From contig JAERRX010000077.1 of NCBI GenBank assembly GCA_016735225.1, positions 1 to 34,419 on the forward strand: DNA of 34,419 nucleotides. Direction: 5' to 3'. A program made the translations under genes and the position numbers. Positions 20,181 to 22,686 of this stretch are shown in pieces. Below the pieces are notes generated by a model that was not told the DNA's origin, made no database searches, and worked only from the letters and a program-made list of their open reading frames with translations. Origin of the DNA: Sulfurimonas sp. Lineage in GTDB: Bacteria > Campylobacterota > Campylobacteria > Campylobacterales > Sulfurimonadaceae. How positions within the stretch are numbered: the first letter of the stretch is position 1; the number at the start of each line of letters is the position of its first letter.

Positions 20181-21356
20181 CTAGGTTCTATAATCAGCAT
20201 TGATCTTGATATATTCATGACCTAAGTCACAACCATAAGCTTTAAAACTTCCATCTCCTACACCTAAGTCACATGATATTGTAAACTTTTTATGCCTCAT
20301 AACTATGGCACATTTTTTTTCCATCTGCTCATCAAAATAAAGCTTGCCTCTGTCATAAACACAAAGATTATCAAAGGAGATCTTTAGTTTATCTTCATAA
20401 CTCTCTACTCCACTTGCTCCAACAGTAGATGCTACTCTACCCCAGTTTGGGTCTTCTCCATAAAGAGCAGTTTTTACAAGTAACGAATCAGAAAGAGTTT
20501 TTGCCACTATCTCCGCCTCTTTGTCATCTTTTGCACCACTTATTTTATATGTAACAAGTTTGCTCGCACCCTCTCCATCTCGAACCATCTCAAGAGCCAA
20601 AAAGTGCATCACTTTAAAAAGTGCCTCTTTAAATGCATCTGTATCAAAAGCTCCACTTTTAGCATTACTTAAAAGTAAAACAGTGTCGTTTGTTGATGTG
20701 TCTCCATCTACACTTATCGCATTAAAAGTAGTTTTTGTGACCTCATCTAGTATCTCTTGCATCTGCTTTTTTGGAACAGTTGCATCTGTGGTTATAAAGC
20801 ATAGCATTGTAGCCATTGCGGGGTTTATCATACCTGCACCCTTTGCCATCGCTCCTATACTAAAACAACTTCCATCGTCAAGCTCTACTTTTAAAGCTAT
20901 CTCTTTTGAAAAAGCATCTGTAGTCATGATAGCCCTAGATGCTTTAGCGGACTCTTTTTTTCTAAGGTCAAAATCTTTCATCGCATCTATGATCTTTTCT
21001 TTAGGAAGTCTAACACCGATAACCCCAGTAGAACTCATGATAGGGTTTAACTTATCACTACAATGGCTTAAAACCTCATCAATATCATCATAGCCATCTT
21101 GTCCAGTCATTGCATTTGCATTTTTTGAATTTATCAAAACAAAGTTAGTTTTAAAATCTCCCTTTGCCCTAAAATGCTTTATGGGGGCTGCAAACATTTT
21201 GTTTGTAGTAAATACAGATGCTACTTCACATGAAGTATCACTATATATAAATGCCATATCAAGTGCATTTTCTGGTTTTAAACCTGCACTAACTCCATCT
21301 GCAAAAAAACCTTCTGCAGCACATATACCATCTTTTGTTTGGACTATTTTATACAA
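20181..21356 (-). CDS. argJ: Glutamate N-acetyltransferase / amino-acid N-acetyltransferase ArgJ
   Basis: [29 protein letters not shown] autocleavage region, [20 protein letters not shown] start. Confidence 0.95.
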
Positions 21357-22104
21357 ATCTCATCTCCCTTGGCTTCTCTCTTCTTCTTAGAAGTTCTTTA
21401 GTTGTGTTTATATCGCTCTGTTTTCCTATGATAAGCAACCTACACTCACTTGTAATCAAAACATCACCTTTTGGCATAGTTATAAATTTTCCATCTTTTT
21501 TTGTTATACCTATAACTGAAGTGTTTGTAATTTGTCGTATATGTGTTTCTTTTAATCTTTTGAGTACAGCCCAGCTATACTTTGGAACCTGCACCTCTTC
21601 CATGTCAAGAGGGTTATCACTCTTGTATAAAAACTCCTCTAAAAGGTTTTGCATATCTGGTCTCGTTGCAACTGCACTCACTCTTTGAGCAGTTAATTTT
21701 GTAGGAGAAACAACAGTATCAGCTCCTAGTTTTTTTAGTTTTTCTACATCGCCCATAGATTCAGCAGCAGAAATAATATAGTATGGTTTTGGAAGAAAAT
21801 GTTCTTTTTCAAAAAGTCTAACCGATGCTATAAGAGCGATATTGTCTGCCATAGAATCAGAAAGTGTTATAAGACCTTTTGCAGATGATAAGTTTACTTT
21901 TAGCATTGAAAGTTCTGCATGTGGTTCTGCTTTTAAATATTGAGGATAGTTATACTCAACTGCCCATTCATCGATTTGGGGTCTTGGATCAACTACGACA
22001 AAAGGGATGTGGTTATTTTTTAACTGCTTTGTGACTTCAAGTGTGTAGTCATTATGATAACAGACTACAAAATGTTGCTTTAACCTTGCTATTTTATATA
22101 GCAT
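21349..22104 (-). CDS. Candidate internal translation product: free RCK domain (251 aa)
   Basis: In-frame ATG (complement of 22102-22104) preceded by AAAGGAG with a 6-nt spacer (AAAGGAGCGAAAAATG). Confidence 0.5.
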
Positions 22105-22479
22105 TTTTCGCTCCTTTAGTATAGTAAATATTGTTCCTCTGCTTAACTCCCCTACCAATATACCAATAGCACTAGAAAAAATAGCAAAGCCTGCTATAAC
22201 CAATATGATAGTAAAGATTCTACCTGCATTAGATATAGGGGCTATCTCGCCAAAACCAACAGTAGTAAATGTTATACCTGTCTGGTAAAATGCATCCATT
22301 AGAGTAAAGTTATCTATAAGAACATATCCAACTGTTCCAACAAGCATAATCATTATTGTTAAAATAGCAGGTAGGCGAAATGGTTTGAGGTGAGAGTAAA
22401 GTTCTGGAAGAAGCTTTACTTCAGGTTTAGGAGGAGACTCCCAATGTAGGAAGAAACGAATCCTCTGTAAAAGATTCAA
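21349..22479 (-). CDS. 2-TM potassium channel with TrkA-N/RCK domain
   Basis: Selectivity-filter-like [12 protein letters not shown] between two TM helices; Rossmann-type RCK domain ([14 protein letters not shown]...); TTG start. Confidence 0.9.
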
Positions 22480-22497
22480 GTTAATTCCCTATTCTCT

Positions 22498-22686
22498 TTA
22501 GGAATTTTTCTTAAGTGTACGTAACTCTCTTGCAGAGATTTTAATCTTTTTTGTAGTACCATCTTCTAGTTTGATACGTACTGTTCTTAGGTTTAATAAA
22601 AAACGACGCTTTGTTCTGTTTTTTGCGTGAGAAACATTGTTTCCACTCATAGGGCCTTTGCCACTAATAGCACATCTTCTTGCCAT
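22498..22686 (-). CDS. rpmB: 50S ribosomal protein L28
   Basis: [33 protein letters not shown]. Confidence 0.97.

Follow-up and report, generated by a model that had tools for sequence, protein, structure and literature searches.

A single reading frame in Sulfurimonas in all probability yields two products, a K+ channel with two transmembrane helices (2TM) and one RCK domain per subunit and, from a second start codon within the same frame, a free RCK. The frame lies on the reverse strand of the window, by which we mean the whole stretch of 34,419 nucleotides analysed here (Table 1). Initiation at TTG 22479 would produce the channel subunit with its tethered RCK (376 amino acids), and initiation at ATG 22104, by means of the in-gene AAAGGAG, a soluble RCK of 251 amino acids. 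Four free RCKs would then pair with four tethered ones to form an octameric gating ring on the tetrameric pore, a ring that a one-RCK channel would be unable to complete alone. By this count, eight RCKs require one free RCK for each single-RCK subunit and none where the RCKs are in tandem. On the sequence evidence given below, a free RCK subunit of ~29 kDa very likely joins the four tethered RCKs in the ring, because its start signal is rare, because the site is conserved at a synonymous position, and because the ATG is missing at this site in paralogues. An earlier note on this DNA had read two products from the frame, and the conserved synonymous signal and the missing ATG in the sampled tandem-RCK-type paralogues support that reading.

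Translation of the frame (22479-21349) gives a protein of 42.8 kDa, in which Pfam identifies Ion_trans_2 (residues 40-110), TrkA_N (137-259), and TrkA_C (293-364). The transmembrane helices span residues 28-56 and 84-114, and the one TrkA_N and one TrkA_C that follow the second helix (TM2) make exactly one RCK per subunit. Two RCKs per subunit, as in the tandem channels of the GsuK type, were not found by Pfam in this protein of 376 residues, which has a single TrkA_N and a single TrkA_C. The nearest solved relative is MthK, both by sequence and by fold. The gene is, on these sequence matches, a K+ channel of the MthK/HpKchA type, and conduction is predicted. In the AlphaFold2 model, the first RCK strand occupies residues 137-140, and the predicted free subunit starts 11 residues ahead of it, inside the linker helix between TM2 and the RCK. 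The predicted short product matches RCK-only structures of MthK along its length. The main features described in the earlier note are all there: the frame with its TTG start and weak upstream signal, the TVGFG filter, and the AAAGGAG-N6-ATG at the junction between TM2 and the RCK.

Table 1. Positions of the channel gene, its two start sites, and neighbouring features in the window.
Feature	Position	Strand	Basis or remark
K+ channel gene, full-length, 2TM + single RCK, MthK/HpKchA type, 376 aa	21349..22479	-	Pfam, sequence and fold
Start codon (TTG) for the full-length protein	22477..22479	-	
Weak AGGGA 5' of the TTG start	22486..22490	-	Duplex of -4.8 kcal/mol with the 16S tail
rpmB (ribosomal protein L28), 18 nt 5' of the TTG start	22498..22686	-	Translation
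Selectivity filter TVGFG, residues 73-77	22249..22263	-	
Linker helix TM2-RCK bearing the internal start, residues 116-131	22087..22134	-	AlphaFold2, mean pLDDT 86.8
Internal Shine-Dalgarno AAAGGAG within the codons of Leu121-Lys122-Glu123 (CTA AAG GAG)	22111..22117	-	
Internal ATG, Met126, candidate start of the free RCK	22102..22104	-	Invariant in orthologues
Predicted second product, free RCK, 251 aa, 28.9 kDa	21349..22104	-	Translation, model

The internal signal is written in the coding sequence itself: read in frame, the codons CTA AAG GAG CGA AAA ATG contain AAAGGAG, a spacer of 6 nt, and the ATG of codon 126. Its pairing with the 16S tail, computed with the standard tail CACCUCCUUU in place of this genome's own, reaches -8.0 kcal/mol, against -4.8 kcal/mol for the full-length TTG. 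As background we used 267 long genes from 434 kb of DNA, made up of the window and 400 kb from the complete genome of a close relative (G108). These genes contain 1834 internal in-frame ATGs, of which just one is preceded by AAGGAG with a spacer of 4-8 nt: the Met126 site. A duplex energy of -8.0 kcal/mol is reached by 1.4% of them. The folding energy of the mRNA is -6.2 kcal/mol at the internal start, the same as in shuffled sequences, and -13.2 kcal/mol at the full-length start, a difference that is suggestive only of a more open internal site. The full-length start is separated from rpmB by the intergenic stretch 22480-22497, and the two genes are probably co-transcribed. A loose motif scan found an L28-like ORF upstream of the channel gene in 154 of 179 orthologous loci, which suggests that the coupling of the channel start to the ribosomal-protein gene is conserved. 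The full-length start codons of the orthologues, as inferred by alignment, are TTG (96), ATG (70), and GTG (11).

We collected orthologues from the genus, from a sample of the phylum, and from named genomes, resulting in 204 loci and 180 distinct proteins, which reach down to 42% identity. They are represented by 58 sequences with pairwise identity below 80%. Among the matches listed, all orthologues fall within the window's own order. Met126 is invariant in the 180 distinct orthologues and is the sole Met column kept in all of them; it is also one of the 20 columns that are invariant in the 58 representatives. The alignment has no indels in columns 115-130. The codon of Lys122 is AAG in 171 of 171 orthologues (51 of 51 representatives), whereas AAG accounts for 25% of the Lys codons in the orthologue genes, 22% in the representatives, and 18% in the sampled relative genome; AAA predominates in the remaining Lys columns (2-40% AAG). 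Nine proteins have Arg at this position, always encoded by AGG or CGG and always followed by GAG, with GGGAG retained. Glu123 is encoded by GAA only alongside the AAG of Lys122, with AAGGA retained, and one orthologue has AAGGAT. Positions -10, -9, and -8 relative to the internal ATG are G, G, and A in every orthologue: the wobble base at -10 is always G, and the remaining upstream wobble positions are variable. Mean pairing with the 16S tail is -7.6 kcal/mol for the internal start versus -3.9 kcal/mol for the inferred full-length start, and the internal Shine-Dalgarno is the stronger one in 161 of 177 orthologues.

The codon-constraint score of column 122 is 2.76, the highest among 166 columns (the next is 1.25). 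When changes between AAA and AAG were counted on the tree by parsimony, column 122 had none, and the 18 other Lys columns had 3, 6, 6, 11, and so on up to 38. The tree count is a fairer figure than the naive probability that all representatives have AAG (10^-39), which ignores their relatedness. Since the Shine-Dalgarno is fixed at a synonymous position in 180 orthologues and the other Lys codons change fast, the codon pattern demonstrates selection for the internal start across the order. The alignment of orthologues at synonymous positions, suggested in the earlier note as a check, thus came out strongly in favour of its reading. A constraint on the protein alone, with the channel requiring Lys-Glu-Arg-x-Met and the nucleotide signal arising as a by-product, agrees with the conservation of Met126, Glu123, and most Lys122 as residues. 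Yet such a constraint is unable to fix a third base, as seen in the 171 AAG codons against a share of 22-25%, in the AGG or CGG of the Arg codons, and in the lack of any synonymous change. The M107I mutant of MthK, moreover, still assembled and crystallised (PMC2573919). We give this explanation hardly any credence.

Paralogues provide a control for the role of the internal start. The linker alignment included 35 non-orthologous sequences, i.e., 33 paralogues and two single-RCK channels. The paralogues, which come from the genomes that also hold the orthologues, are nearly all ~470-565 aa long, and their assignment to the tandem type is by length and match, not by an individual domain scan. 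In the linker alignment, none of the 33 sampled paralogues has an ATG at the position equivalent to Met126. The residue at this position is usually Ile, Leu, or Val, and since paralogues carry a hydrophobic residue there, Met is not structurally required. Near the site, a few of them carry a run of purines by chance, with no start codon in register. The genome of the window itself encodes a tandem-RCK-type paralogue (G000:C91:22354-23289, reverse strand, L002/L209), which has a TVGYG filter and a linker without internal ATG. The two non-orthologous single-RCK channels, which are rare and belong to other branches, have an ATG exactly at the site (L211 in G105, 375 aa; L229 in G152, 351 aa), preceded by AAGGA in L211 and by a weak Shine-Dalgarno in L229.

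The same control bears on the possibility that AAGGAG is a Shine-Dalgarno-like pause after TM2 that aids membrane insertion, with Met126 incidental. Elements of this kind have been proposed as ribosome pauses on mRNAs of E. coli membrane proteins, but they concentrate at codons 16-60 and ahead of TM2 (PMC4359368), and the one studied here is at codon 122, after the last transmembrane helix. Pausing needs no ATG six bases on, and the ATG is nonetheless invariant. Finally, the channel shares its membrane topology with the tandem-RCK-type paralogues, in which the element is mostly missing and the ATG always so. As both its position and the paralogues disagree with a pause site, we rejected this explanation as very improbable.

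A free RCK could also be made from a short mRNA covering the RCK part, transcribed from an internal promoter, and this would be compatible with the same product. The window does contain an extended -10-like string, TGGTATATT, ~55 nt upstream of the internal ATG. However, TGnTAnnnT is found upstream in 21% of the representatives, within the 2-41% found in control regions of the same genes, and a scan with promoter consensus sequences found promoter-like sites no more often than in shuffles. We rejected the internal promoter, unlikely as it is, because the upstream -10 is not conserved. Ribosomes presumably initiate at the second translation start (22104) in this organism.

The contrast between the two types of channels can be put as a rule: where the RCK is single, the gene would retain a ribosome-binding site and a start codon within its own frame for an obligatory free RCK, and where the RCKs are in tandem it would not. 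We lean towards this rule, with moderate confidence. Beyond the order, a single-RCK channel encoded on plasmid pDK1 of Rhodococcus sp. DK17 (L253) has its ATG at the homologous position itself, preceded at a greater distance by GGAG. Among the few plasmid-borne channels checked, that of Hymenobacter has its ATG three residues off the site and without a Shine-Dalgarno. These few channels are too thin a basis for extending the rule beyond the order.

The free RCK of MthK is made from the internal Met107 (PMC2573919, PMC2920069, PMC4565861), a precedent rightly invoked in the earlier note. Like the channel described here, MthK has 2TM and one RCK, and Met107 is homologous in place to Met126; the two proteins differ in having ~22% identity and a filter that is TVGYG in MthK and TVGFG here. 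For MthK, the octamer containing free RCKs was deduced from a mutant crystal and its physiological reality has been disputed, the octamer in vivo having been questioned (PMC2920069). In GsuK, each subunit has two RCKs in tandem, and four subunits complete the octameric ring (PMC3510474). GsuK and the ~520-aa paralogues share the 2TM pore and the RCK with our channel, but their RCKs are in tandem and here the RCK is single. The second precedent of the earlier note, Kch of E. coli, is weaker than stated. Kch also has a single RCK after the pore, and an internal Met has indeed been proposed as a start, but the protein has six transmembrane helices, its internal ATG is located 5 residues further on, and AAGGA lies 12 nt upstream. 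Elimination of the putative internal start changed neither expression nor function (Kuo 2003, reported in PMC2920069). Linkers of the Kch type contain a potentially initiating Met, whereas those of Kef do not (PMC2920069, Figure 1 legend).

A better precedent than Kch is HpKchA (HP0490) of Helicobacter pylori, which is absent from the earlier note. This protein is from another genus of the same order, has 2TM and one RCK as here, and is very probably an orthologue of our channel. Its internal start codon reportedly gives a separate RCK at about 1:1, and mutation of this codon is reported to cause an intermediate K+-dependent growth defect (Stingl et al. 2007, EMBO J 26:232). Judging from f2 genomes with the sequence IKEKGMIYKI, the internal Met of HpKchA would be the equivalent of Met126. 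By analogy with MthK and with the work reported for H. pylori, we infer that the free RCK would have a role in the assembly of the ring. HP0490 begins with UUG (PMC8743543), and TTG is the start codon here too. The main text of a study of C. jejuni by Ribo-seq mentions neither RCK nor potassium channel (PMC11955535).

The earlier note took the soluble form to be possibly the more abundant. The strength of the Shine-Dalgarno, the use of ATG versus TTG, and the more open site point towards the short form being favoured. Against this, translational coupling to rpmB might increase the output of the long form, and ribosomes that are elongating through the frame may obstruct the internal site. Equal amounts of the two products (1:1) would be enough for an octameric ring.

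RCKs made from an internal start are already known in kind, with Met107 of MthK as the model and HpKchA. To this, the present comparison of sequences adds the synonymous fixation across the order and the contrast between single-RCK and tandem-RCK channels. If the rule is true, the conserved signal would be evolutionary evidence, independent of crystals, for a physiological octamer of four tethered and four free RCKs throughout the order. This bears on the dispute over whether free RCK subunits exist in cells (PMC2920069). The signal also provides a criterion for annotation, as a gene call giving the long product alone would be incomplete.

The channel has no match in many genomes of genus g14 (family f3; for example, G161, G181, and G184) that are complete in other respects, and it was probably lost in this genus. 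The Ca2+ ligands of MthK, Asp184, Glu210, and Glu212, are not all kept: in a pairwise alignment, Glu210 is replaced by Ala and Asp184 by a non-acidic residue. Glu212 aligns to a position that is Glu in only about half of the representatives. As judged from this alignment, the loss of ligands lowers the case for calling the channel Ca2+-gated and leaves its description as a single-RCK channel standing.

The selectivity filter varies among orthologues. In orthologues of family f2 such as L179, L181-L192, L197-L199, and L203, it is TATGFG or TNTGFG, with Thr replacing the usual Val. The filter is TVGFT in 14 of the 180 orthologues (L139, L141, L142, L144, L146, and others), and it ends in LGYT in L151, L152, and L201 and in LGFT in L155. 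This replacement of the last Gly by Thr, mostly in family f3, is uncommon among K+ channels and might affect selectivity.
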